Shown: piece by piece, positions 29,682 through 57,924 of the stretch
Layout of the letters: each line of letters opens with the position of its first letter
Numbering within the stretch: position 1 is the first letter of the stretch
Source of the DNA: Akkermansia muciniphila
GTDB taxonomy: Bacteria; Verrucomicrobiota; Verrucomicrobiia; Limisphaerales; UBA9464
DNA length: 59,052 bases
Assembly (NCBI GenBank): GCA_945898055.1
Contig: CAMDGV010000023.1
Span: 1-59,052 of the forward strand
Reading direction: 5' to 3'
The notes under the pieces: generated by a model
Database searches by the model: none
What the model was told of the DNA's origin: nothing
What the model saw: only the letters and a program-made list of their open reading frames with translations
Translations under genes and position numbers: made by a program

Positions 29682-32600
29682 TTAAGCAAAGTCATGAGAA
29701 GCGGATGTTTGGAGTTCACCAGGGTCCAAACGTTCGAGAGTGCGTGCTTGGATGTGCACGGTGTTATGCCGCAACTGAATGAGGCCTTCTACGCGGAGAA
29801 AAGCTTCACTGGTGACCGTGAGTCGACGGGCTTCAAATAAGTCCGCCGTGACAATGACATTAATGATACCTGTCTCGTCTTCGAGACTGATGAAGCAAAC
29901 ACCCTTTGCGGTTCCCGGTCGTTGTCGGCAGATCACTTGACCGGCCACGATAATCCGTAAACCGTCTCGTCCGAGGACTAAATCTGCGGCCCGCCAGATC
30001 TCGGGGATGCGTTCCCGAATCAAGGCCATGGGATGAGGGCCTGTGGTCAGCCTTAATCCGGCAAAATCCGCTTGAGTCCGTTCCGTTGCGTTCATTTTTC
30101 GTAACGGCGCGGTCGGGACAGTCAGACCTTCAAATAAATCGCCGGACCGCACGGGTCGCTCTGATTCCCACAACGCTGAGCGTCGATGTTCCGAGAGAGT
30201 ATTTAGTGCACCGATTGACGCCAATTGCCGTCGTTCGTCTGCGGCAAACCCAGTACGAGTGAGAAAATCAGGCATGGAATCAAACGGCATTCGATCTCGT
30301 TCTTCAAGGAGGCGAGCCACCCGCTCTCGTCGGAGCCCTTGGACATGTGACAATCCCAAGCGAATTGAGTCATCCTCACCTAGGGTGCAGTCCCAATTGG
30401 AGCGGGCGACGCAAATAGGGCGGACTGCGATTCCGTGTCGCTTAGCGTCACCGATAAGAGTGGCTGCCGAATAAAATCCCATAGGTTGATTGTTCAAGAG
30501 TGCGGCATAAAATTCGGGGGCTCGATGCACCTTGAGCCAAGCGCTCGCGTAGGCCAGCAGAGCAAAACTAATGGCGTGCGACTCCGGAAATCCGTAGAGG
30601 GCAAAGGAACCCACTGCTTTAGCGATCTGTTCAGCGACCGCCGGCTTGACCCCTTTTCGTTGCATCGCTTCCAGTAAACCCGTTCGTGCTTGGATCATTT
30701 TTTCATCCGACCGATGAAAGCTCAGTGCTTTGCGTAAGGCTTCAGCTTCATCGCCAGAAAAATCAGCCATCACCATGGCCATTTCCAACATTTGCTCTTG
30801 GAACAAGGGGACGCCCAGTGTCCGGCGCAAGACTGGCAGCAATCGTTCATCGTAATACGTCACGGCTTCTTCACCGGTGCGACGACGCAAATAAGGATGA
30901 GCTAATTCTCCTTGGATAGGGCCAGGTCGAATAATGGCTATCTGCACCACTAAATCGTAAAAGCACTGGGGTCTTAAACGGGGGAGGGTGGCCATTTGTG
31001 CCCGACTCTCTACTTGAAAAACCCCAATTGTATCTGCAGCGCATAATGCCGCAAAGGTGGCAGGATCACTTTCCGGTAAATCCGCTAAATCGACCGGTCG
31101 CCCCCGAGTTCCGCATAAGGTGACGGTATCTTGGATTGCCGACATCATACCCAACCCGAGGAGGTCGACTTTAATAATGCCCAGTTCTGCGCAGTCGTCC
31201 TTATCCCACTGAGCTACGACGCGCCCTGGCATCGCCGCATTTTCCAATGGCACAAAACGATCCAATCCGCCGTCACTAATAATCATGCCACCAGAATGTT
31301 GCCCTAAATGACGCGGTAAATGGGCGAGCCGCACATAGAGCGAAGCAAAAGCAGCAGAGCGAGGATGGCCCGCTGGCAATCCTGCTTTTTCCATTTGAGC
31401 GGTCAGTTCCAAAGTGTGTGGAAAGTCGCCTCCTGAAAATAAGGCAGAAAATCGTTCAACCACATCACCGGGTAATTCCAGTACTTTACCGACTTCCCGA
31501 GCCGTTCCGCGTCCGCGATAGGTGTGAATTGCACCCGTCATTGCGGCGCCATAAGGTGCATAGCGCCGATAGACTTCTTGGATTACCCGCTCCCGACGAT
31601 CCCCACTGGGGAGATCGATATCGATATCAGGCCATCCTTTGCGGCCTTCGCTAAGGAAACGCTCGAAGAGCACATTAAACTTCACTGGATCTACGGCCGT
31701 CACTCCCAAACAAAAGCAGACCGCACTATTGGCGGCACTGCCTCGGCCTTGAGCAAGAATGGCGTTCTCGCGACACCAACGAACCAGATCTGCGACAATC
31801 AAAAAATAACCGGAGAACCCTAGTTTTGCGATTAAGGCGAGTTCCTTTCGTAACAAAGCGGCTACCTTCTCAGGAATCTTACCTCGATACCGTTCGCGCG
31901 CACCTCGCAACGCCCAATCGTGCAAGACGCTCTCCATGGTCTCTCCGCTCGGCACGGGGTAGCGCGGAAACTCATAGCCCAAATCGGTCAGTCGAAATGT
32001 CAGTTTTTCGGCCAAGCGCGCGGTATTTAAAAGGGCCTCTGGCAGATCAGCAAAGAGGGTTTGCATCCGGGTGGCCGGTTTGAAATGACGTTCTGCATTC
32101 ACCGAAAGTAAAGAACCTGCACTTTCTAAAGGAACGTGATTGCGCAGGCAGGTGAAGACATCAGCAATATCCCTTCCCGCAGCCTCGGCATAGTCGACTC
32201 CGTTGGTTGCCAAGAGGGGCATCCGTTCCGCTTGCGCCAAATCTATAAGAAAGCGATTCCACCGTTCCTGTTCAGGACGATGATGCCGTTGGAGTTCGAT
32301 AAAAACTCGGCCTGCGCCAAAGCAACGTCCCAATTTTTGTGCCTGTTCTAGGGTCCGGTTGCGATCACCATTGCTCTGCAACAGTGTCTTCACAAGGGGC
32401 CCCTCTTCGCCACCGGTCAAGGCGATCAGCCCTTCTGAATGTGCTTCCAATTCCTCCCAGCGTATTCGGCCTTCTCCTTTTTCTGACCGTAGATGGGTTC
32501 GGGTCAATAGGCCGCAAAGATTTCGGTAGCCCACTTGGTTTTCCACCAAGACCGGCAGGGTAGAACCCTCTTCCATGACCAGTTCGCATCCGACGATATC

Positions 32601-32846
32601 TCGGACGCCATTTTCCCGCGATGCCATCCGAAATCGGGGGGATCCGTACAATCCCATTCGATCACAAACGGCCACCGCTGAAATCTCCAATCGAGCGGCG
32701 GCTATCGCTAAACTTTCTGGTGAAGAAGCACCTCGCAAGAAGCTAAATGCACTCCGCGCATGCAATTCAATGTAGCTGGGCACCGCAGCACCCCGCTTTT
32801 TTGAGTTCACTGGCTTGAACTCATTTTGTGAAGAAAACGCGCTCAT
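29682..32846 (-). CDS. dnaE2: Error-prone DNA polymerase DnaE2
   Basis: This C-family polymerase performs translesion synthesis in the ImuA-ImuB-DnaE2 mutasome. The N-terminal PHP domain starts at YIELHARSAFSFLRGASSP, the usual DnaE2 opening. The catalytic acidic motif PDIDID lies at 406-411, followed by GDRRERVIQ. Other family segments are GRGSAANS and VFQVESRAQMATLPRLRP. A C-terminal OB-fold is visible in CFISLEDETGIINVIV. The length of 1054 residues is typical. It starts three bases after imuB ends, so it is in one operon with imuB and imuA. Confidence 0.95.
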   Translation of the reverse strand: MSAFSSQNEFKPVNSKKRGAAVPSYIELHARSAFSFLRGASSPESLAIAAARLEISAVAVCDRMGLYGSPRFRMASRENGVRDIVGCELVMEEGSTLPVLVENQVGYRNLCGLLTRTHLRSEKGEGRIRWEELEAHSEGLIALTGGEEGPLVKTLLQSNGDRNRTLEQAQKLGRCFGAGRVFIELQRHHRPEQERWNRFLIDLAQAERMPLLATNGVDYAEAAGRDIADVFTCLRNHVPLESAGSLLSVNAERHFKPATRMQTLFADLPEALLNTARLAEKLTFRLTDLGYEFPRYPVPSGETMESVLHDWALRGARERYRGKIPEKVAALLRKELALIAKLGFSGYFLIVADLVRWCRENAILAQGRGSAANSAVCFCLGVTAVDPVKFNVLFERFLSEGRKGWPDIDIDLPSGDRRERVIQEVYRRYAPYGAAMTGAIHTYRGRGTAREVGKVLELPGDVVERFSALFSGGDFPHTLELTAQMEKAGLPAGHPRSAAFASLYVRLAHLPRHLGQHSGGMIISDGGLDRFVPLENAAMPGRVVAQWDKDDCAELGIIKVDLLGLGMMSAIQDTVTLCGTRGRPVDLADLPESDPATFAALCAADTIGVFQVESRAQMATLPRLRPQCFYDLVVQIAIIRPGPIQGELAHPYLRRRTGEEAVTYYDERLLPVLRRTLGVPLFQEQMLEMAMVMADFSGDEAEALRKALSFHRSDEKMIQARTGLLEAMQRKGVKPAVAEQIAKAVGSFALYGFPESHAISFALLAYASAWLKVHRAPEFYAALLNNQPMGFYSAATLIGDAKRHGIAVRPICVARSNWDCTLGEDDSIRLGLSHVQGLRRERVARLLEERDRMPFDSMPDFLTRTGFAADERRQLASIGALNTLSEHRRSALWESERPVRSGDLFEGLTVPTAPLRKMNATERTQADFAGLRLTTGPHPMALIRERIPEIWRAADLVLGRDGLRIIVAGQVICRQRPGTAKGVCFISLEDETGIINVIVTADLFEARRLTVTSEAFLRVEGLIQLRHNTVHIQARTLERLDPGELQTSASHDFA

Positions 32847-32848
32847 GC

Positions 32849-34330
32849 TTAATCAAGCAGACCTGTGATCCGCCATCCAACTGAAGTCAGAGTGAGTCGT
32901 ACAACGACTCCCGATACAGTTTGTGCCTCCCAATCTTCGCGTGACCACGCTTCAGATTCCCACCACCGACCTGAGGCCCGCCAAGGGCCGGTGGTGATTC
33001 GGATTCGTCCGTTTACTCCTTTGCTCGAGACTGAAAGCGGAGCTCCATTTGCAGTGGATGCTTGCACCGTGGCCTCGGTCTCAGGACGCAAACAGCGCCA
33101 AGGAATTGGGCGGATCAATTCGGGTCGACTCCCGCTCCTGGGTGCCGCTGTCTCAAAATCCGGAGGCACTAAGCGAAACGAATCCCGTTGATGACCGGGC
33201 ATTCGGACAGGCGAACCGATCCGGTCGGCACCTAAGAGCACTGACAATCGTCCGAGTGTTTCCTGAAATTGATGCGGATCTCGCAAGACCGTTTCAAAAA
33301 GACTAAATTGGCGCTGAGCCGGTTGTCCAGGATCGAGGGACAGGCTCAAGGCACAAACGGCTGTTTCTGTTCGCACTGTCTCCAAGTGAGCACGAAGCAT
33401 ACGAAAGAGGATTTCGGGTTGCCGAGTGGGTTCCGGCACTCGCAGTTCTCGTTCATGCACGAAACCTGACTCCAAGCGTAATCGGAGAGTCATTGCCCGC
33501 GCCACTTGTCCGGTGGCTTCCAAGCGTAGGCCGAGTGAATTGCTAAAACGTTGCAGCAAGAATAACAACGGTTCGAGGGTTTCAACCGGCTCTTCAAAGT
33601 CGATCGCATCCTCAAACCGCTCTGCGGGACGAGCCAATCGCAGCGGCCGGACCGCCGTGGTTGAGGCCGCAGCAAACAAGCCTAACGCTTCCAAGCCCAG
33701 ACGTTCGGTGACTTCAGATGGGTTCAACGCCAATAACTCGCCCACAGTCCGAATACCCCACTGCACTAAAATTTCCGCTGCGTAGTTAGAAGGTTCTAGT
33801 GCCGCGATGGGTAAATCAGTGATGAACGACCGACTATTGGCAACCACACACACTGTTTTAGTTGATCCAGCCGCATGCCGCGCACAGTCGGGCGTGGCCG
33901 CCACCCCAACGCTCGCCTCCAAGTCGAGTAAAGCCACCACGGATCGTAGTCGCTTGGCCCACTCAGTTAGGGATGTAGGATTGGCATCGGTCAATGCAGC
34001 AATCCCTCGCAAATCCAAAGTCAACCGACCCGGTGCGGTGAGTTCGATATTCGGTGAGAAAGCAAAAGCGCACTGAAGCAGGGCCTCCATTGCTGTGGAT
34101 TCCGCGGTCAGCGAACGATGCCGAATCCGTAAACCCTCGCAACGAGCTAAGGCGTGGGTCGGGGTCATACCTTCGTTCAGCCCACGCTCTCGTGCCATCG
34201 AAGTCAGAGCGCAAACGCGTGGCGTGGTACGTTCCGGATCTACGAGTGCAACGGCTTCTGCCCGCAAGTCCGGTAAACCGCGTAAGGCCGCTTGTAAACT
34301 AAAGTCAGCAAGATCAATCACGGCGTACAT
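32849..34330 (-). CDS. imuB: ImuB, catalytically dead Y-family polymerase-like mutasome subunit
   Basis: ImuB bridges DnaE2 and the sliding clamp. The first strand reads YAVIDLADFSLQAAL, where an active Y polymerase would have DxDxFxAS, so the metal-binding Asp/aromatic pair is changed as is normal for ImuB. The palm and little-finger regions follow (ERGLNEGMTPTHALARC and later EDAIDFEEPVETLEPLLFLL). Residues 341-346 read QFSLFE, close to the consensus beta-clamp-binding motif QLxLF. It is encoded between imuA (16 bases away) and dnaE2 (2-base gap). The length of 493 residues is normal. Confidence 0.9.
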   Translation of the reverse strand: MYAVIDLADFSLQAALRGLPDLRAEAVALVDPERTTPRVCALTSMARERGLNEGMTPTHALARCEGLRIRHRSLTAESTAMEALLQCAFAFSPNIELTAPGRLTLDLRGIAALTDANPTSLTEWAKRLRSVVALLDLEASVGVAATPDCARHAAGSTKTVCVVANSRSFITDLPIAALEPSNYAAEILVQWGIRTVGELLALNPSEVTERLGLEALGLFAAASTTAVRPLRLARPAERFEDAIDFEEPVETLEPLLFLLQRFSNSLGLRLEATGQVARAMTLRLRLESGFVHERELRVPEPTRQPEILFRMLRAHLETVRTETAVCALSLSLDPGQPAQRQFSLFETVLRDPHQFQETLGRLSVLLGADRIGSPVRMPGHQRDSFRLVPPDFETAAPRSGSRPELIRPIPWRCLRPETEATVQASTANGAPLSVSSKGVNGRIRITTGPWRASGRWWESEAWSREDWEAQTVSGVVVRLTLTSVGWRITGLLD

Positions 34331-34346
34331 GAGGTCCCTTAAAAAC

Positions 34347-35027
34347 TTAGCCCGTTAGGAACAATGGCTCGCCTTGGGTTACGCTGCTTTGTCGCAGAAC
34401 CTCGAACTGAAGGGAGTCCAAGGCGGCTTGAGTCAAAGCAGATGTCGCTTGAATTCCAGGATTCCATCGACAACGCACTCGCACTGAAACACCCCCGACC
34501 AGCGCTTGGGATGTCACCACGAGTAGTGTCGTTTTATGGTGGTCGCACAAACGCCCAAATCGGTGCCAGATACTGCTGGAAATGCGCCGGAGTTGGACCA
34601 TTGGGTTGAGCTTTAGATCGAGGATCACGAGCGGGATATTGGGGTCGCGAAGGAGAATATCTGTGGCCTTCATAGCTTCATCCACGGTGCGGCAACGCGC
34701 CCAAAGTAAACGGGCTAACACCGCCGGTTCCATCGCGTCGACATCGAGACTGTCTGCTCCATCGACTAAGGCAGCAAAGCGTCCTTCAGTGGCGCTATGA
34801 GCCAAAAGCGCATGGAGTAACTGGGCCGATCCTGACCCAGCGCCTTCACCGACGACTTCAGCCGTTTCGCCGACCGGCCATCCCCCGCCCAAAAGCGCAT
34901 CGAGAGCAGGGATGCCAGTCGATAAACCCAGCTGTGCTTGCGCCCGAGCCAATCCCAAGCGCGTGGATGGCATCCGTGCGGCGAGGAGTCGACGGAGATC
35001 GATAATTTTTTCGTTGAGAGCAGGCAT
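34347..35027 (-). CDS. imuA: ImuA, RecA-like mutasome accessory protein
   Basis: The 226-residue product has the RecA-like opening STGIPALDALLGGGWPVGETAEVVG. The P-loop position reads GEGAGSGSAQLL, lacking the Lys of GKT, so nucleotide binding is probably weak or lost. Later strands (PLVILDLKL near residue 134 and LLVVTSQALVGG near 170) also fit. It is the first gene of the imuA-imuB-dnaE2 cassette, an order seen in many phyla. Expression of such cassettes is usually damage-induced through LexA. I see only a weak dyad upstream. Confidence 0.85.
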   Translation of the reverse strand: MPALNEKIIDLRRLLAARMPSTRLGLARAQAQLGLSTGIPALDALLGGGWPVGETAEVVGEGAGSGSAQLLHALLAHSATEGRFAALVDGADSLDVDAMEPAVLARLLWARCRTVDEAMKATDILLRDPNIPLVILDLKLNPMVQLRRISSSIWHRFGRLCDHHKTTLLVVTSQALVGGVSVRVRCRWNPGIQATSALTQAALDSLQFEVLRQSSVTQGEPLFLTG

Positions 35028-48114: not shown

Positions 48115-48743
48115 ATTTAATACGAGCCCTATTCAGATGCCTAGGGGGCCTTCATAGATCGTCAAGAATCCGGTTTCTTTCTGGCGGGTCCGGGTTTGCA
48201 AACGGTGGACATGACCCGGGTGCTGGTGTTTTTCGATTCGTTGTCAGGCAACACCGCCAAGATGACGACCAATTTATGCCAATGCCGGGACCGAGTCGCC
48301 CCATTCCGAGTCTCCCTGACGGAATCCGTCTCCGAATTCGAAGCAGATCAGTCGAGACTTCCATCGGGAATCCGTCAAATCGAGGTCGTCCACGATCGGA
48401 AAGTCGCAAATTGCTCTGGAGTTCACCTCAAGGACATCCGGAGCGGCTTGGGACGGTCTGTGCGAGCCTTCCAAACCCCAAATCCAATCCCTAACCGCAG
48501 CCAATTTTGACAAACGGAGAAAGTAGCAGAGACTTCCAACCGCTGGTCTAAAAAGAGGCTGTCACCCCTAGAAATCAGAGGCTAATGGCCACTGCTATTA
48601 GGAAGTTCCGCAGGGGTATGGAGAGGCTTTACTTCCAGAAATTGACTGATTCCACAAAGATAGACCTAGCTTTTTCTCAGTGTCAGAAATCAAATTGAAT
48701 AAGGTTTTTGAAGGTAAACACTCAGTCTCGGACGAATCAATCT
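48115..48743. other. Gene-free stretch before the BspA-like gene
   Basis: About 630 bases hold only short overlapping frames on both strands (for example 48196-48510 plus and 48274-48513 minus) with no recognisable domain and no consistent codon use. The middle part has a protein-coding look in composition and may be a decayed gene. The last 100 bases are AT rich and probably carry the promoter of the LRR gene. Confidence 0.35.
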
Positions 48744-51491
48744 ATGCGAAATGAGACCGTCGGTTTTTTGAAGGCTCGGAAGACTCTCTGCGGCCTTGGA
48801 TTGTTGTTACTCCAAGTATTAATTTTTCCCGCAGTCGCACAAACCCAGGGATACGCTTACAAAATCCTGAACGACACCGTTACCATTACCGGCTACAGCG
48901 GTCCCGGCGGAACGCTGACCATCCCCAGCGAAATGAATAGCCTGCCGGTAACCGCCATCGGTGACCGGGCGTTCTCTGGCAACCTCAACCTCACCAGTGT
49001 CGCAATCCCCAGTGGGGTCATTATCCTCCAAGACGGTGCCTTTTCTGACTGTCTCAATCTAACCGATGTGATAATCCCCAGCAGCGTCATCACCATTGGA
49101 TACTCGGCGTTCTCGGGTTGCTCCAGCCTGACTAATATGGTGATCCCCAGCGGGGTCACCAGTATTGAAGAAAGGTCTTTCTCTGGTTGCACCGGACTCA
49201 TCCGTGTCACGATTACCGGTAACGTCACCACCCTCGGATGGGCGACGTTTTCGGGTTGTACCAACCTGACCAGCATTAGCATGGCCAACGGGGTGACCAG
49301 TATCGAGAACTCGGTATTTTCCGGTTGCACCAAACTGACCGAAATCACGCTCCCCGACAGCGTCACCAGCATTGGAGATAGAGCGTTCTTTGGTTGCAAC
49401 AGTCTGACTAATATCGCGCTCCCCAACACCGTTAACAGCATTGGAGATTTTGCCTTCTACGGTTGTACAAGTCTGCCCCAGCTCACGCTTCCTAGTAGCG
49501 TCAATAGCCTTGGAGATTCTGCCTTCTACGGTTGCACAAGTCTGGCCTATGTCCCACTGCCCAGCGGTCTCACGAGCATCGGGGACTCTGCCTTCTATGG
49601 GTGCACTAGCCTCACCAACGTCACTCTCCCCGCCGGCGTCAATAACATCGGGTACTCTGCCTATGCCGGCTGCACTCAACTGGTCAGTGTCATAATTCCA
49701 GATAATGTGACCAGCATCGGGAAGTCAACCTTCTCGGGTTGTACTCGTCTATTTCGTGTTACCCTTCCCGACAGTGTCACGACTATTGAGAACTCCGCGT
49801 TCTACGAGTGCTTCAGCCTTACCGAGATCACCCTTCCGAGCAATCTTAACGTCCTTGGGTGGTCTGCCTTTTCTGGTTGCGTAAGTCTAACCAGTGTCTC
49901 CATTCCAATCGGAGTTTCTATCATCGAGACATCGACATTCTACGGCTGTACCAGCCTGACTAATGTCGCGATTCCTAAGAGCGTCATCAGCATCGAAAAC
50001 ACTGCTTTCTACAGCTGCCTCCGCCTTGGAAGTGTCCTAATACCGAGCAGCGTGACAAGCATCGGAGACTCTGCCTTCTCGGGTTGCACTCAACTAGCCC
50101 ACTTGACGATTCCCAACAGCGTTACGAGTATTGGGTACTACGGCTTCTATGGATGCGCCAGCCTCACCCAAGTTACCCTGCCGAACAGCATCACCAGCAT
50201 CGCTCCATTTACCTTCTCTGCTTGCACACAACTGGCCCGTGTCACCTTCCCGAACAGCATCATTAGCATTGGGCAGTCTGCCTTTTCTGCTTGCACACAA
50301 CTGGATGCCGTCACCCTCCCGAGCAGTGTCATCAGTATCGGTGAATCTGCCTTCTCGGGTTGCACTCAACTCAACAGCATCCTTCTTCCCGTCAATGTTA
50401 CTCAAGTCGAAAGCTCGACCTTCTCGGGTTGCTCCAGCCTGACTCAGGTCACCTTTCCTAGCGGTCTCCTCTCCATCGGCGAGTCTGCGTTCCTTGATTG
50501 CAAAGCACTCAGTAGTCTCAAACTCCCAACGACCGTCATCACCCTCGGAAGCAGGTCCTTCTCGGGTTGCTCCAGTCTGACTCAGGTCACCTTTCCTAGC
50601 GGTCTCCTTACCATTGGCGAGTCGGCATTCCTTGATTGCAAAGCACTCAGCAGTCTCAACCTCCCGACGACCGTCATCACCCTCGGAAGCAGGTCATTCT
50701 CGGGTTGCTCAAGCCTGACCGGGGTCACAATCCCGAGTGGCGTTACTACGATAGGATTCTATGCCTTCTCTAATTGTGCCCGCCTGACCGCGATCAATGT
50801 GGACCCGGCCAATTCCCAATATAGCAGCATGGACGGAGTCTTACTCGATAAGACCCGAGTGAGTCTGATCCAATGTCCTGCGGGCAAAATCGGTACCTAC
50901 ACTCTTCCCAGCAGCATCATCAACGTCGGATCCTATTCTTTCTTTGACTGCACCAATCTAACCACGGTTATCCTGCCCGACGGTGTCGTCCGCATTATGG
51001 ATGGAGCTTTCTCCGGTTGTAACAACCTGACCACTCTCACCATTCCCAGTAGCGTCGTCAGCATCGGAGACTGGGCGTTCTACGACTGTTCCCTTCTAGC
51101 TAACATTTATTTTCAAGGGAATGCTCCGCGAGATCCTTACACCGGGTTGATGAAAATCGGTGGGACGATGTTTGCCAAGTCCAACAGTGCAATCCTCTAT
51201 TATCTGCCCGGCACAATCGGTTGGGAATCGACCTATGAGCTTCGTCCCACAGTGCTGTCGCTACCTGAGATCCAAAATACCGATACCCGTTTCGGGGTCC
51301 GATCCAATCAATTTGGATTCAATATTAATTGGGCTATGGGGCGCGTTGTCGTCGTGGAAGCTTCCGAACACTTAGGGGACGCTACTTGGTCTCCGGTGGG
51401 AACGAACATCCTAAAAAACGGCACAACCTTCTTCAGTGATCCTCAAATAACAAACTTCACTTCCCGACTCTATCGCCTCCGAGTGCCGTGA
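48744..51491 (+). CDS. Secreted BspA-type leucine-rich-repeat protein
   Basis: I chose the ATG at 48744 over the TTG at 48708. It leads to a signal peptide (GLGLLLLQVLIFPAVAQTQ). From about residue 45 to 790 the protein is built of about 30 repeats of 23 residues with the pattern FxGCxxLTxVxIPSSVTSIGxxA (LRR_5/BspA type). One unit near 690 carries a longer insertion. The last 100 residues form a separate beta domain with VVVEASEHL, WSPVGTN and a final RLYRLRVP. BspA-like proteins bind host matrix, other bacteria or polymers at the cell surface. The ligand here is unknown. There is no transmembrane anchor, so the C-terminal module may mediate export or attachment. Confidence 0.85.
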   Translation: MRNETVGFLKARKTLCGLGLLLLQVLIFPAVAQTQGYAYKILNDTVTITGYSGPGGTLTIPSEMNSLPVTAIGDRAFSGNLNLTSVAIPSGVIILQDGAFSDCLNLTDVIIPSSVITIGYSAFSGCSSLTNMVIPSGVTSIEERSFSGCTGLIRVTITGNVTTLGWATFSGCTNLTSISMANGVTSIENSVFSGCTKLTEITLPDSVTSIGDRAFFGCNSLTNIALPNTVNSIGDFAFYGCTSLPQLTLPSSVNSLGDSAFYGCTSLAYVPLPSGLTSIGDSAFYGCTSLTNVTLPAGVNNIGYSAYAGCTQLVSVIIPDNVTSIGKSTFSGCTRLFRVTLPDSVTTIENSAFYECFSLTEITLPSNLNVLGWSAFSGCVSLTSVSIPIGVSIIETSTFYGCTSLTNVAIPKSVISIENTAFYSCLRLGSVLIPSSVTSIGDSAFSGCTQLAHLTIPNSVTSIGYYGFYGCASLTQVTLPNSITSIAPFTFSACTQLARVTFPNSIISIGQSAFSACTQLDAVTLPSSVISIGESAFSGCTQLNSILLPVNVTQVESSTFSGCSSLTQVTFPSGLLSIGESAFLDCKALSSLKLPTTVITLGSRSFSGCSSLTQVTFPSGLLTIGESAFLDCKALSSLNLPTTVITLGSRSFSGCSSLTGVTIPSGVTTIGFYAFSNCARLTAINVDPANSQYSSMDGVLLDKTRVSLIQCPAGKIGTYTLPSSIINVGSYSFFDCTNLTTVILPDGVVRIMDGAFSGCNNLTTLTIPSSVVSIGDWAFYDCSLLANIYFQGNAPRDPYTGLMKIGGTMFAKSNSAILYYLPGTIGWESTYELRPTVLSLPEIQNTDTRFGVRSNQFGFNINWAMGRVVVVEASEHLGDATWSPVGTNILKNGTTFFSDPQITNFTSRLYRLRVP
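50427..50702 (+). repeat. Two near-identical 138-base tandem repeats in the LRR gene
   Basis: 50427-50564 and 50565-50702 encode two 46-residue blocks (two LRR units each) that differ at only a few positions, for example LLSIGES versus LLTIGES and LKLP versus LNLP. The rest of the repeat array is far more diverged, so this is a recent in-frame duplication. Confidence 0.8.
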
Positions 51492-51569: not shown

Positions 51570-53480
51570 TCACCGAGCCCTCAACCGATAGAGTCGAAGC
51601 CCATTGCCCAGTGGCAGGTCGATTTGAATCGACACTAAGCCCAAGTCCCCCAAAACGGCGGGCGGGGTTGCCCAAATACCGCTGGCGACTATCGCTTGTG
51701 AAAGCACCGTTCCTCCACCGGCGATTTCGACAGATTCAAGCTCATAATGGCTACTTGGACGTCCGGTCAGATTTAATCGAAGCAACCCTCCTGAGGCCGA
51801 AAGGACTTTGAGTTGAGCAACGAATTGAGGCGCTTTAACGAGGGCAGCCCCCCAGTTAGCTGCATCATAACCGGCAGCGTCCCCTACCCGGCGCTGAATC
51901 AATTGAGAAGCACTCAATTCCAAAAGAGGCCACGGAGCGAGGGCCGAATAACTGATTTTTTCGACGACATAATAAGGTACAAATCCGGCATCAGAACGAG
52001 GGGGTTGTTGAGGCGGATCGGGGCGGACCAACCTCAACTCTTCTCCCTCTGCGGATAACTGTCCACTGTAAGGACCGACGACCGGAACCGAAGCGGGCAG
52101 TGCTAGCAAAGCACGGACGGCAGCAAAATCGGATGTTCCAGCCACGACAATTCGTCCACCCGGAGGTAAACTCTCGGGTTCAGGAAATTGAAAAGTGATT
52201 CCACCTTCGATTGCCCAAGTATGGGCGGGATAAAACGGATCAAAAAGAGGCACCTCAGAACCGCTGATATTCAGAAGTTCGACAAACTCAATTTCACCCG
52301 CCGCTGCCGAATACCGAATCCGATTAAAAACCACCGGACCAATTCGGTGCGGAGCATTGGAGGATCCTCGCCCTTGACGGAAAAGCGTTATCCACTCTGG
52401 CGGATCCAAATTCACCACTTCTGTCCCCAAGGTCATTCGTGACATTAGTAGGAACGGTCCTATTCCATCGGGATAGCGACCAAAGGAAACCCCATTCGGG
52501 CTCGCCGGAAAGGACTGCACATCCTCAAATCTTAATAATCGACCGGCCCCATCGGCCGAGGTCAAGACAACGGCGTCGCCACGGGCTGCGCCAAAAGTAA
52601 AAGGGACTCGGTCACCCTCGGGTGTCGCTGGGTAGAACTGGGACTCATACAGCACTAGAAATCCGCGCGGTGGAAGGGTCGTGCCGCTGGGAATCCGAAA
52701 CCGAGTGGGTTCATCCAGTGAATTAGATAAATACCATCCTCCAACCGACAGCGTCGTATCCGTTCGATTATACAGCTCGACGGCATCTTCTAAGGGAGGA
52801 TCTGTGTGAGCCAATAGTTCATTGATCACCACCCGATTGAGTGGACCTGTCCCGGCGGTCCCAGGAGAACCGTGATACTCGGTCGATGCTCTCCAGTTGG
52901 TGGGAAGGTTCTGCGGACCAGCTGGATCCACCAGTTCCAACGAACTGCCTTGTCCCGCAGCTCTCGATGGCCATTCGCCCGTGACCCCGTAACGAACTTC
53001 GGTCAGCACCGCTCCAGAGGCCGAGGTCAACAGCAGAGTTTCCCCCGAATTATTTAATGCTCCGGTGTAATTCCCAGGCATCAATTGGGCAACAGAACCG
53101 TAACGAGCGACGAATTGCGGTGAATTGCGGCACAGCACAATTCTCTGGCCCGCTGCGAGGCGATAGCCGGCGGGAAAGGTGAAAGCAATGCCTCCCTTAA
53201 ACACGGCTCCACCCAAATCAGCCGATTGGTTCCCCGAATTCAAAAGCTCGATAAACTCCGCCTCGGCAAAAGCAGTACCGCCAGCGGGTTGATAGTGAAT
53301 TTCACTGATCACCACCTGCTGTGCCTCGATCAACGGGGCCGCAGGCCAAGTCCCCATCAGAAGGACTAAACAAAAAAAACGGAACACAGGTGAGGCTACA
53401 GATGAAACTGCAGGTCGGCAAAGTAGCTTTTGCTTTTTTCTGACACCAGATCGCGGTTGAATCAACCCGATGCAACTCAC
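51570..53480 (-). CDS. Secreted multi-lamin-tail-domain protein
   Basis: The 636-residue product has a signal segment (FRFFCLVLLMGTWPAAPLIEAQQ). An alternative GTG at 53387 would start just before it and avoid the 11-base head-to-head overlap with the next gene. Three lamin-tail domains are visible: VVISEIHYQPAGGTAFAEAEFIELLNSG (about 60-165), VVINELLAHTDPPLEDAVELYN (about 218-330) and VVFNRIRYSAAAGEIEFVELLNISG (about 400-500). The C-terminal part ends RLYRLRAR. It is probably a surface or extracellular adhesion-type protein. It shares domain types with the CotH protein upstream. Confidence 0.8.
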   Translation of the reverse strand: MSCIGLIQPRSGVRKKQKLLCRPAVSSVASPVFRFFCLVLLMGTWPAAPLIEAQQVVISEIHYQPAGGTAFAEAEFIELLNSGNQSADLGGAVFKGGIAFTFPAGYRLAAGQRIVLCRNSPQFVARYGSVAQLMPGNYTGALNNSGETLLLTSASGAVLTEVRYGVTGEWPSRAAGQGSSLELVDPAGPQNLPTNWRASTEYHGSPGTAGTGPLNRVVINELLAHTDPPLEDAVELYNRTDTTLSVGGWYLSNSLDEPTRFRIPSGTTLPPRGFLVLYESQFYPATPEGDRVPFTFGAARGDAVVLTSADGAGRLLRFEDVQSFPASPNGVSFGRYPDGIGPFLLMSRMTLGTEVVNLDPPEWITLFRQGRGSSNAPHRIGPVVFNRIRYSAAAGEIEFVELLNISGSEVPLFDPFYPAHTWAIEGGITFQFPEPESLPPGGRIVVAGTSDFAAVRALLALPASVPVVGPYSGQLSAEGEELRLVRPDPPQQPPRSDAGFVPYYVVEKISYSALAPWPLLELSASQLIQRRVGDAAGYDAANWGAALVKAPQFVAQLKVLSASGGLLRLNLTGRPSSHYELESVEIAGGGTVLSQAIVASGIWATPPAVLGDLGLVSIQIDLPLGNGLRLYRLRAR

Positions 53481-54675
53481 CCATGGAATCCATCTGGCTT
53501 ACTGCACCAATATCCATCGCGGAGAGACTTGGGCCGAGACTCTCAATGGACTAGAACAGCACACGCTCGCAGTTCAACGCCGGGTCTCCGGAGGACGCCC
53601 CTATGCTATCGGGCTTCGATTAAGCGATGCTGCGTCTCGAGATCTGGTCGAACCCAAACAACTGGCCGCCTTCAAAGCTTGGCTGCAGCGTCATAATGCT
53701 TATGTGTTTACCATCAATGGATTTCCTTATGGCCAATTTCACGGTCAAAGGGTCAAGGAACAAGTTTATGCACCCGATTGGACGCATCCCGACCGACTCG
53801 CATATACCGAGCGCCTCTTCCAAATTCTCGCCGCTTTACTCCCCAACGGGGTCTCCGGTTCAGTAAGTACCGTGCCCGTCTCTTTTAAAGGATTTCATCG
53901 TACTCCTCGAGAACTCAAGACCGCTCGTGATCAACTGTGGAAATGCGTCGACTTCCTCGAGTGTTTAACTCGGGAAACCGGCCATGATCTTCATCTGGGT
54001 CTTGAACCTGAACCGCTTTGCCACTTGGAAACCACCTCAGAATGCGTGACTTGGTTTGAAGAACTGCGTGCCGACCGCCCCGGCGATCTTCGCCTCGATA
54101 CTCATCTCGGTATTAACTACGATACCTGCCATCTCGCTATCCAATACGAGCGCCCTCAGGAAGCTCTGGCTCGCCTCCAAAAAGCGGGTATTCGAGTCAG
54201 CAAAATTCACCTAAGTAACGCACTTTCCGTCCATCCCACACTCGAGGTTCGTAACGCCCTTCGCAGTTTTGCTGATGACATTTATTTCCATCAGGTCATC
54301 GAACGTCGGCCCAGTGGCGAATTCATTCGATACGGCGACCTAGACCAAGCTCTGGCTGCCGACCTCTCTGACGCGCCTGAACTGGATCGTGAATGGAGGA
54401 TTCATTTTCACATCCCTCTTCATGCCTCGCCCACCAACGTCTTTTCCACAACCGCCGATCATCTGACCGGGGTACTTGATGCGGTCAAGGGTGCACCCGC
54501 ACTTTGTCAGCATTTTGAAATGGAAACCTACACCTGGGAGGTGATGCCTTCCGGAATGAAAAATCAGAATGTGGTCGACCAACTGGCCGGTGAATATGAC
54601 TGGACTCTCAGCCGCTTTCGCGAACGAGGCTTTGTACCTATTTCAGCGATAGGTTCCCTACCCTCACCCCCATGA
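53470..54675 (+). CDS. EboE-like TIM-barrel protein (metabolite traffic family)
   Basis: The 401-residue product opens HLAYCTNIHRGETWAETLNGL and has GIGLRLSDAASRDL near 47, INGFPYGQFHGQRVKEQVYAPDWTHPDRLAYT near 78-109, GLEPEPLCHLETTSECV near 178 and NYDTCHLAIQYE near 215. These agree with EboE of the ebo operon, a xylose-isomerase-like barrel implicated in precursor transport to the periplasm in cyanobacteria. The other ebo genes are absent, so the local role may differ. The ATGA overlap couples it to a formylglycine-generating enzyme gene. Confidence 0.75.
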   Translation: MQLTHGIHLAYCTNIHRGETWAETLNGLEQHTLAVQRRVSGGRPYAIGLRLSDAASRDLVEPKQLAAFKAWLQRHNAYVFTINGFPYGQFHGQRVKEQVYAPDWTHPDRLAYTERLFQILAALLPNGVSGSVSTVPVSFKGFHRTPRELKTARDQLWKCVDFLECLTRETGHDLHLGLEPEPLCHLETTSECVTWFEELRADRPGDLRLDTHLGINYDTCHLAIQYERPQEALARLQKAGIRVSKIHLSNALSVHPTLEVRNALRSFADDIYFHQVIERRPSGEFIRYGDLDQALAADLSDAPELDREWRIHFHIPLHASPTNVFSTTADHLTGVLDAVKGAPALCQHFEMETYTWEVMPSGMKNQNVVDQLAGEYDWTLSRFRERGFVPISAIGSLPSPP

Positions 54676-55799
54676 GTGCCTCGACCCGATACAGTTATTG
54701 GGCGGCTCAATCCCTCGTCCTTATGATAGCGAGCGGATGCGGACCAAGCACCTCGATTGACCCAGCTAAATCAAGCGCCCAGACCTCTTCTGCTGCTCCA
54801 GTTTCCAACCCACCCACCCAAGGTAATACCGAAAGAATGGTTCGGATTCCCGGGGGTGAATTCTGGATGGGCGGACCTCCCCAGACTTCAATGACCGCCA
54901 TTCAGGAGTCGCTAACTCCGGGTGAACCTGTCTGTTCGGGCCTTCTGCAGGGATTCCCTGACGCGGCCCCAACTCACCGCGTGCGGGTGGACCCTTTCTG
55001 GATGGACACCCACGAAGTGAGCAATCGGGACTACGCTCGCTTTGTCGAAGCAACCGGTTATATCACCGTGGCTGAGCGGGCCTTGAACCCTGCTGATTTT
55101 CCCGGTGCCGATCCCGCTTTGCTTGTTCCAGGGTCGGTTGTCTTCGTCGCACCTTCCGAACCGGTCGCCCTCAATAATCCTTTTCAATGGTGGCGCTACC
55201 TTCCCGGTGCTAACTGGCGCCATCCCGAAGGCCCCCAGAGCTCTCTCACTAACCGCTTCGATTACCCCGTTGTTCATCTGGCTTACGCCGATGCAGAAGC
55301 TTATGCCCGTTGGTCAGGGAAACGCCTGCCAACCGAGGCGGAATGGGAATTTGCGGCCCGAGGCGGTCTTGACCAAAAAGGCTATCCTTGGGGTGATGAC
55401 CTGATGCCAAAGGGACACTGGCAGGCCAATGTCTTTCAAGGACGATTTCCAGACTCAGACACGGCGGCGGACGGCTTTAAGGGCTGCGCTCCAACCGGTC
55501 AATTTGCTCCCAACGGCTACGAACTATACGACATGGCTGGTAACGTCTGGGAATGGTGTAGCGACTGGTACAGGCCCGATACGTACCACCAAGCCTCTCT
55601 TCCTTTGACTCTGAATCCAAGTGGACCACCCGACAGTTTTGATCCAGATGAACCGGGGATTCCCAAACGCGTCCATCGCGGCGGTTCATTTCTCTGTTCC
55701 GTGCAGTATTGCTCGAGGTTTCTTATCGGCTCGCGTGGCAAGGGTGCTATCGACACCGGCAGCCTCCACGTCGGGTTCCGCTGTGTCCGAAGCCCTTAG
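54672..55799 (+). CDS. Formylglycine-generating enzyme (FGE) family lipoprotein, both catalytic Cys present
   Basis: FGE oxidises a Cys of sulfatases to formylglycine. The product has a lipoprotein signal with IASGC near residue 23. The domain starts MVRIPGGEFWMGG and includes FWMDTHEVSNRDYARFVEATGY, LPTEAEWEFAARGG and MAGNVWEWCSDWY. The active-site segment is RGGSFLCSVQYCSRF, with Cys 342 and Cys 347 spaced as in authentic FGE/SUMF1. Most bacterial SUMF1-like proteins lack this pair. The length of 375 residues fits an exported enzyme. No sulfatase gene is in the window. It overlaps the EboE-like gene by four bases. Confidence 0.85.
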   Translation: MSASTRYSYWAAQSLVLMIASGCGPSTSIDPAKSSAQTSSAAPVSNPPTQGNTERMVRIPGGEFWMGGPPQTSMTAIQESLTPGEPVCSGLLQGFPDAAPTHRVRVDPFWMDTHEVSNRDYARFVEATGYITVAERALNPADFPGADPALLVPGSVVFVAPSEPVALNNPFQWWRYLPGANWRHPEGPQSSLTNRFDYPVVHLAYADAEAYARWSGKRLPTEAEWEFAARGGLDQKGYPWGDDLMPKGHWQANVFQGRFPDSDTAADGFKGCAPTGQFAPNGYELYDMAGNVWEWCSDWYRPDTYHQASLPLTLNPSGPPDSFDPDEPGIPKRVHRGGSFLCSVQYCSRFLIGSRGKGAIDTGSLHVGFRCVRSP

Positions 55800-55855
55800 T
55801 TAGCGTGGCCCATTGATTTTTTAACGGGCGTGGATGTCTTAGCGCACAAACGTAA

Positions 55856-55881
55856 GATGGGGTCGCCGTCGCAACCCCATC
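55856..55881. terminator. Bidirectional terminator-like hairpin
   Basis: GATGGGGT and ACCCCATC form a perfect eight-pair stem. Two further inner pairs follow one mismatch, around a four-base loop. It lies between the convergent FGE and cytochrome-like genes, 57 bases after one stop and 19 bases after the other. No long T-run follows. Confidence 0.5.
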
Positions 55882-55899
55882 CTAAAGACCGACGCTTCG

Positions 55900-57924
55900 T
55901 CAGAATCGGGCCCAATCGGACTCCGGCCACAAATACTCTCCGAGATTTCGCATCGTCTCCACGATGTCGGATGCCACCCCTTTCTCCTTAAGAAAAACGA
56001 GCATTGCTGAGTGCGAACTCACCCACGGGCGTCCTCTCGGCGGGCCCGGATTATTTTCCGTCTCTCCGCCCAAGATCTCCCCGGTCACAGTGATAAAATG
56101 ATCCCGAGTCACTAATCGTGCCATCCGATCGAATTCAGCCAAATGCGCTCGAATCACACTGTCGCGAAAGGCTGGAGAGTACCCATCCCACATCTGCGGT
56201 TCTTCGCGGGTCCAAAGAAACTCGAGAGCCGGACCGGCCATTCCATTGAAACCATCCCATTGATCGGTCGGTGCATGGGTGGTCGCCTCTCCCGCTTTCA
56301 TTAAGGCCGCAGTCAATTGGGCGGCACTTCCTATGCCGTATTTTTCTTGCCCATGAGTAAAGGCCACCAGATAGGACCAATCGATTGGGAAGGTCCCTTG
56401 CCGACGATGATTAGAATCGTTCAAAACCATCTGAAGCCAGTACCATTGATGGGTCCCAATCTCCCAGACCTGCTGACTCCCATTACGAAGGAAATGCCCC
56501 GTTTGAGGCAGGTTCAACATATGCGGCGCGGCCAAAAAGGCGGTATGAGTCGGCCACGACCGTGCATTGACCGGCCAACTAAAGAACTCTTGACCCGATG
56601 CCTCCCAATTCTTGGCTTTCATGACGTCCCAGCTCTTCACTGCTCTCCACCGCCCCAGCGACCACCAAGCTTGATTAGCGCGGGTCGAATTATCCCGATA
56701 ACCTGCCAGAGCAGCCTCTGTCTGAAGTGGCCCTAAATACCAATCAACTAGGGCCATATGCCATTCATTGAAGCGATAAAGTCCTGAGGCGGCGGAAGGT
56801 TCTTGACGAATCAGCTGGAGCCGATCGTAGACCGGTTGAAAACTGGCTCCATAGGAATCCTTGGGATGAATACGAGGCAGCCAACTATTCCAATCCGGTA
56901 GCGGCATAGAAATCGGCAATTCGCGAATATTCAGAGTATTGGTGTAAGACAATGACACTGCTTCATTCGTTCCGTTGGGAAACAAATACCCCCAACTATC
57001 GCTGTCCTTGGGCAGTACCCACTTCAGGCCTGAACCGGCAGCAAATAGACTCGCGCTCTTGGCATCGACGCCGGGCCCCGGTTGGTAGGGGGGATCCCAA
57101 GGGTAACCGCTTCGTTCCTCTGGGAGTGAGTGGATATAGGCAGCGATTTTGTTACCCTGCGATTGAGTCAACCCGTGAAATTGACTCCGTTCGGAAATGG
57201 ATCGTTTCGAGTAGCTAAAGTACCTTAAATCTGACCCCGTGTCCGTATGGCAATCCCAGCACTTGGCATTTATCCTAGGACCAGACCAACTCTCCCGAAG
57301 CTGGGCATTGAACCAAAGATTAGAGCCGTTCAAAATATCGGTTCGGTTGGTCGACACAGAAAAAGCTGCCTCAGGTAAGCGCTTGGTCGAAGGTCCCATG
57401 ACCGGTTTCCCCTTCGGATCGAGCGCATTCATGTCTAGAACGCGAAACCCGATCGAATTGCCATCTGACTGATTAAATTTAAGAGTTATTTTTTGCCTGC
57501 CGGGTTGAACCGTCACGGTTGGGACATGGAAGGTAAGCGTATCTAAAGGACCACCCATACCGCCCAACTTGGCACCCAGTCCCTCAAAGACACAGTTGGT
57601 ATTATTTAAAGACACAAACAATTGAGATTCTCCATCCCCCACCTTGATACTCATCATGTTCTCGTAGTGCAGACCATGAACCTCCAACCAGAGCGGGTAC
57701 TGGCCGGCAGGTAATTTTTTAGACAGTGAAAAATCGAACGAATTTGTAGAGCTTGCATAACCTGGGCGACCGATAACCTCGGAGACAACGAAACGATTGG
57801 TCGTCGCCGGAGGGGTCCACGGTGTTGCATAGATCGACTGGACCCTGTTTGCGGAGCAGAAGAGAACAAGACCGGTAATGATCCGAACGAGGTAAGTGAA
57901 GTGTGTGAACTGGGTTTTGAACAT
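55900..57924 (-). CDS. Secreted single-heme (CxxCH) protein with N-terminal carbohydrate-binding-like domain
   Basis: A signal segment (residues 12-30) precedes a beta-sandwich region (about 45-165) resembling carbohydrate-binding domains. A heme motif CWDCH follows at 222-226 with the context WSGPRINAKCWDCHTDTGSDLRYFSYSKRSI and a nearby GNKIAAYIHSLP helix, as in cytochrome c. A distal Met ligand is not obvious. The 400-residue C-terminal part (WNSWLPRIHPKDS, WQWYWLQMVLND) is of unknown fold. Planctomycetes and Verrucomicrobia have many cytochrome-c-domain sugar-related proteins of unknown role. The product is probably periplasmic or secreted. Confidence 0.7.
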   Translation of the reverse strand: MFKTQFTHFTYLVRIITGLVLFCSANRVQSIYATPWTPPATTNRFVVSEVIGRPGYASSTNSFDFSLSKKLPAGQYPLWLEVHGLHYENMMSIKVGDGESQLFVSLNNTNCVFEGLGAKLGGMGGPLDTLTFHVPTVTVQPGRQKITLKFNQSDGNSIGFRVLDMNALDPKGKPVMGPSTKRLPEAAFSVSTNRTDILNGSNLWFNAQLRESWSGPRINAKCWDCHTDTGSDLRYFSYSKRSISERSQFHGLTQSQGNKIAAYIHSLPEERSGYPWDPPYQPGPGVDAKSASLFAAGSGLKWVLPKDSDSWGYLFPNGTNEAVSLSYTNTLNIRELPISMPLPDWNSWLPRIHPKDSYGASFQPVYDRLQLIRQEPSAASGLYRFNEWHMALVDWYLGPLQTEAALAGYRDNSTRANQAWWSLGRWRAVKSWDVMKAKNWEASGQEFFSWPVNARSWPTHTAFLAAPHMLNLPQTGHFLRNGSQQVWEIGTHQWYWLQMVLNDSNHRRQGTFPIDWSYLVAFTHGQEKYGIGSAAQLTAALMKAGEATTHAPTDQWDGFNGMAGPALEFLWTREEPQMWDGYSPAFRDSVIRAHLAEFDRMARLVTRDHFITVTGEILGGETENNPGPPRGRPWVSSHSAMLVFLKEKGVASDIVETMRNLGEYLWPESDWARF

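Follow-up and report, generated by a model that had tools for sequence, protein, structure and literature searches.

What does it mean that the gene for an EboE-like barrel protein runs straight into one for a formylglycine-generating enzyme (FGE)? The arrangement lies in the window, the whole 59,052-nucleotide stretch of a verrucomicrobial draft genome that was analysed. Here eboE, encoding a xylose-isomerase-like TIM-barrel protein of 401 residues, occupies positions 53470-54675 of the plus strand, and the FGE gene, whose 375-residue product has an export-like and lipoprotein-like N-terminus, follows at 54672-55799 on the same strand. A first-pass annotation had given both genes exactly these coordinates and frames, and the bases read directly at 54672-54675 (plus strand) are the ATGA it had claimed, in which the eboE stop and the FGE start overlap. 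A scan of 53200-56000 found no sigma-70-like promoter or terminator. The two genes probably form a two-gene transcription unit and would then be transcribed together. Outside the pair, a divergent gene for a lamin-tail-domain protein (PF00932) lies at 51570-53480 on the minus strand. The FGE gene has eboE upstream and no sulfatase adjoining it; beyond it stands the gene for a 674-residue protein (55900-57924, minus strand), which matches no Pfam or NCBIfam model over cut-off and contains CWDCH, presumably a haem-binding-like motif. Elsewhere the window encodes a BspA-type leucine-rich-repeat protein of 927 residues (48708-51491, plus strand), as well as three consecutive genes (29682-35027, minus strand) resembling what we take to be an ImuA-ImuB-DnaE2 mutagenesis cassette.

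The product of 54672-55799 is very probably an authentic FGE with both catalytic cysteines, as the first-pass annotation had it, if its sequence is any guide. It matches the full FGE-sulfatase domain (PF03781, 242.5 bits, profile positions 2-255 of 255), and FGEs rank first among the solved chains, with E values of 7.8e-77 (6s07), 1e-76 (5nxl) and 1.9e-73 (human SUMF1, 2aii). In the alignment to PDB FGEs the segment RGGSFLCSVQYC (55677-55712, plus strand) carries both cysteines and falls on the C-x4-C active-site pair of the human and bacterial enzymes. With human SUMF1 (2aii, 1y1e) and the other solved FGEs (6s07/5nxl, 2q17, 6muj) the window protein shares the catalytic domain, the two active-site cysteines and the RGGS...GFRC ending; to these it adds an export-like N-terminal signal, probably that of a lipoprotein. 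A single-sequence AlphaFold2 model of the FGE had a mean pLDDT of 31.8 and was left out of the analysis.

The upstream partner also falls in a known family. EboE scores 458.2 bits against NF035939 (TIM_EboE; equivalog cut-off 250) over profile positions 1-378 of 379, and 25.7 bits against the general barrel model PF01261, whose cut-off is 31.1. Its AlphaFold2 model, built with 20 sequences (mean pLDDT 87.3, pTM 0.89), is a xylose-isomerase-like barrel. The earlier designation as an EboE-like barrel is upheld. The best Foldseek match in the PDB is L-xylulose-5-phosphate 3-epimerase UlaE (E 7.2e-9), accompanied by ribulose/allulose 3-epimerases, a likeness at the level of the fold only (TM-score by query length ~0.5). 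By sequence no solved relative of EboE was found, the best E value being 0.15.

Where, then, is the rest of the ebo pathway? The other ebo genes had been noted as missing, which is correct for the window and incorrect for the genome, where four further contigs carry them: EboB is encoded on contig C113 (65% identity), EboD on C8 (552.1 bits, cut-off 333), EboF on C54 (587.4 bits) and an EboC-like protein on C33 (96.4 bits, cut-off 250; 290 bits against one eboE-linked EboC). With eboE itself on C23, the ebo genes form no single operon here. The genome thus shares with the described ebo clusters (PMC5133447, PMC6282210) an equivalog-level EboE together with EboB, EboD, EboF and an EboC-like protein, and differs in that its genes are scattered rather than joined in one operon; scattered ebo genes are also described, in passages of PMC5133447, for Planctomycetes. 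The main text of that paper contains no mention of 'Verrucomicrobi' and none of 'sulfatase'. We compared 17 chosen genomes, namely that of the window, the two relatives that share the pair (see below), eight from the same family and six further ones known to carry eboE. All 17 have EboB, EboD and EboF, EboD always above its cut-off, and an EboC match is found in all 17, always below cut-off. The EboC model also matches 9 of 14 control genomes, through UbiA relatives, so the EboC-like assignment rests mainly on the score against that one eboE-linked EboC, which is 285-290 bits for the proteins of the window genome and the two paired relatives. The EboA model has no match in the window genome and likewise none in any control genome. 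A conserved protein of ~90-120 residues lies beside EboB in several genomes (L324:7378-7650, L325:5732-6019), and an EboG-like small protein adjoins EboB in G467 and G485; this small neighbour of EboB is possibly EboG, a name taken from PMC5133447.

A similar correction applies to the sulfatases. The statement that any sulfatase is missing holds for the window; a search of the whole genome, a draft of 4.63 Mb in 136 contigs estimated at 95% completeness, returned 19 sulfatase-domain matches, 15 of which reach the active-site region. Thirteen of these 15 are of the Cys type (12 CxPxR, one CxAxR), none is of the Ser type and two have no recognisable motif; a hydrophobic N-terminal stretch precedes the domain in 14 of the 15. 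The same genome has 15 FGE-fold matches to PF03781. In thirteen the active site can be read, and among these the window FGE is the only one with both cysteines; the remaining two are fragments that end short of it. The anaerobic maturase model TIGR03942 has no match in the window genome or the two paired relatives (G482, G483), and among nine genomes searched it gave weak matches, far under cut-off, in G405, G382 and G424; in the control set it matches 12 of 14 genomes, two of them above cut-off. Because it is the sole readable FGE-fold stretch with both cysteines and no anaerobic maturase was found, the window FGE is probably, as far as draft genomes can tell, the chief sulfatase-maturing enzyme of its genome or even the only one. 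With draft assemblies and two fragments short of the active site, finding one FGE and no maturase does not prove this. In G442, which has 28 FGE-fold matches, both cysteines are present in only one of the five fetched loci (L272, in the printed segment). Counts of FGE-fold genes thus overstate the number of sulfatase-maturing enzymes, the window genome having 15 Pfam matches and one with the catalytic cysteines among 13 readable. This bears on the many FGE-domain genes that passages of PMC6388578 give for anaerobic PVC bacteria.

How widespread is the pairing itself? eboE was detected in 115 of 288 genomes of the phylum and in 144 of 195 genomes of the order, the window genome being included in both counts. 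We fetched 120 eboE loci (80 + 20 + 20, several records occurring in more than one set), 108 of them with at least 1.2 kb of downstream sequence. An FGE gene directly follows eboE in two (2/80, 0/20 and 0/20), L137 and L138, and the remaining 118 showed no such pair. The first-pass annotation would have given up its reading had the pair been confined to one genome; two other MAGs carry it, and uniqueness to the window genome is ruled out. Their eboE products are 77% and 76% identical to that of the window and their FGEs 63% and 64%, and in both the genes are separated by a 14-base gap, compared with the ATGA overlap in the window. Over 9 kb the two loci share 92.7% identity, which leaves, with the window, two lines of descent in all. 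The MAG of L138 is labelled Akkermansia muciniphila and yet shows this identity to a pond Verrucomicrobiales MAG, so its label looks doubtful. The divergent lamin-tail gene stands beside the pair in all three genomes (tblastn, 58% identity; truncated in L138, where the contig stops), so the pair may be no more than gene order passed down by descent. Among window ORFs of at least 100 residues, no match to L137 or L138 was found beyond these three genes and their shadows, bar a lamin-tail cross-match.

Beyond these loci the two genes are seldom close. Among the matches listed for the order (195 genomes), they adjoin each other in the window genome alone, and in G436 they share a contig at a distance of ~86 kb. 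A further three of the 120 eboE loci, L192, L211 and L090, have weak FGE-fold matches (~29-34% identity) away from eboE. The more usual neighbours of eboE are other ebo genes: eboC directly follows it in 35 of the 120 loci (22/80, 8/20, 5/20) and eboB directly precedes it in 26 (20/80, 4/20, 2/20). No further ebo gene was detected around eboE in eight loci of the same family (L077-L084). A plasmid search returned 53 records, of which not one reaches 80% query coverage, and the 20 matches listed touch the FGE part only. In the open-licence literature no paper was found that treats eboE together with formylglycine.

The company kept by the FGE is of a different kind. FGE relatives at E 1e-30 or better occur in 91 of the 195 genomes of the order, that of the window included; at this threshold none was found in three members of the same family, G382, G424 and G467. 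Among 20 fetched relatives (the best 19 other than the window, plus G293), a sulfatase lies within 200 bp of the FGE in seven and within 6 kb in nine, where a rough estimate from the sulfatase density of the window genome puts the chance of one within 6 kb at ~4%; none was detected within this distance in the other 11, some of those loci spanning less than 6 kb. Each of the two paired relatives has two sulfatase genes in opposite orientation directly past the FGE, one with CTPSR and the other with CSASR (L137:9529-12247, L138:3386-6104). The sulfatases of these and other relatives are those of the fetched loci only. The window FGE belongs to the same group as the sulfatase-associated FGEs of its order and shares their hydrophobic N-terminus, and differs from them in having eboE and the gene for the 674-residue protein as neighbours and no sulfatase. 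In an FGE tree of 23 rows (quick method, midpoint root) the window enzyme, those of L137 and L138 and the sulfatase-adjacent FGE of G320 share one unresolved fork with support 85, a topology that gives no clade made up of the three paired FGEs.

Before the pair can be interpreted, one has to ask whether each gene is what it appears to be. The FGE might be a non-catalytic or repurposed protein of the same fold, akin to GldK/PorK or EgtB, as the 12 of 13 readable FGE-fold stretches without the cysteine pair would allow; the GldK and EgtB models do match it, at scores well under their cut-offs (134 against 350 and 84 against 360 bits). We regard this as highly improbable, since FGE chains head the list at E ~1e-76 where PorK/GldK-type chains reach only ~1e-22, the catalytic cysteines are both kept, and sulfatases adjoin the FGE in both paired MAGs as well as in 7 of the 20 relatives fetched. 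A parallel doubt concerns the barrel, which could have been recruited away from its ebo role since the operon broke up. The eight same-family loci in which no further ebo gene was detected around eboE are in keeping with such a shift, as is the nucleotidyltransferase-like gene that follows eboE in four of five loci of genus g153 (GalU model, 108 bits, under cut-off). Recruitment nevertheless strikes us as quite unlikely for an EboE that scores far over the equivalog cut-off, when all 17 chosen genomes have kept EboB, EboD and EboF, along with a below-cut-off EboC-like match.

If both genes are taken at face value, could they serve one function? The FGE might mature an exported enzyme, be it a sulfatase or a different one, whose substrate is a metabolite that the ebo pathway makes or exports. 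The tight spacing would suit such coupling, with an overlap in the window and a short gap in both relatives, and so would the single neighbourhood that eboE, the FGE gene and two sulfatase genes make up in the latter. Passages of PMC6282210 link the ebo genes of Nostoc to export of a scytonemin precursor, and in the window genome a Cys-type sulfatase gene is found 160 bases downstream of eboF, both on one strand (contig C54, L306:6804-10065). The two paired relatives, however, showed no sulfatase next to eboF, which disqualifies this adjacency as a recurrent feature, and one ebo-sulfatase adjacency would arise by chance with a probability of roughly 4% (five ebo genes, two sides and 15 sulfatases in an assumed 4,000 genes). 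The pairing is confined to two mutually related loci of 80 and to none in either set of 20, the window genome is the only one with adjacency among the matches listed for the order, and the sulfatases beside the FGE are accounted for by the FGE alone. We therefore consider functional coupling unlikely. The first-pass annotation had proposed that the pair modifies or delivers an exported compound or a sulfatase. The sulfatase half of that proposal has good support in the sulfatases found elsewhere in the genome and past the FGE in both paired relatives; nothing ties EboE to it. The FGE is tied to sulfatases and not visibly to EboE, and a link between the ebo pathway and the FGE is possible but unsupported.

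The explanation that we favour, and hold to be quite likely, is that two separately useful genes came to be joined, as a probable transcription unit, in one small lineage of this verrucomicrobial order. The FGE would be exported, probably as a lipoprotein, and would convert the active-site cysteine of exported sulfatases to formylglycine once these have passed the inner membrane, in the manner of human FGE in the endoplasmic reticulum. EboE would carry out an isomerase- or epimerase-like step of the ebo pathway, the EboB, EboD, EboF and EboC-like genes of which lie on other contigs. Within this explanation we infer co-transcription, the location and activity of the enzyme, and the absence of a functional link. 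On our best reading the pair is small, real, operon-like and restricted to its lineage, and each gene is sufficiently explained alone. That the pair was kept while the FGEs came to differ at ~36% of positions leaves room for selection on the pairing.

Where would such an FGE act? Characterised bacterial FGEs are, as far as is known, cytosolic. The window FGE looks exported by its N-terminal sequence: residues 1-23 (54672-54740, plus strand) are a hydrophobic stretch that ends in a lipobox-like ASGC, and the protein is probably a lipoprotein. The corresponding residues in the two paired relatives are LTGC and LAGC, compared with which the window lipobox, as read from the translation, is the weaker for its alanine at position -3. 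A hydrophobic N-terminal stretch precedes the FGE domain in all 20 fetched relatives. The FGE and the sulfatases are both export-like, which fits maturation outside the cytoplasm. Among titles and abstract openings in the open-licence literature we recognised no description of an exported or lipoprotein FGE.

What the finding means differs for its two parts. The pairing as such matters little, as either gene can be explained without the other, and the notion that in the window lineage formylglycine formation is tied to the ebo pathway, so that an exported, ebo-dependent compound becomes the target of a formylglycine enzyme, appears very improbable to us. The stronger claim concerns the site of formylglycine formation. 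We see an even prospect that in this verrucomicrobial order formylglycine is formed outside the cytoplasm, by membrane- or lipid-anchored FGEs working on sulfatases that have already been exported; this would be a bacterial counterpart of maturation in the endoplasmic reticulum. Since all fetched FGE relatives of the order look exported, formylglycine formation beyond the cytoplasm is a directly testable idea.
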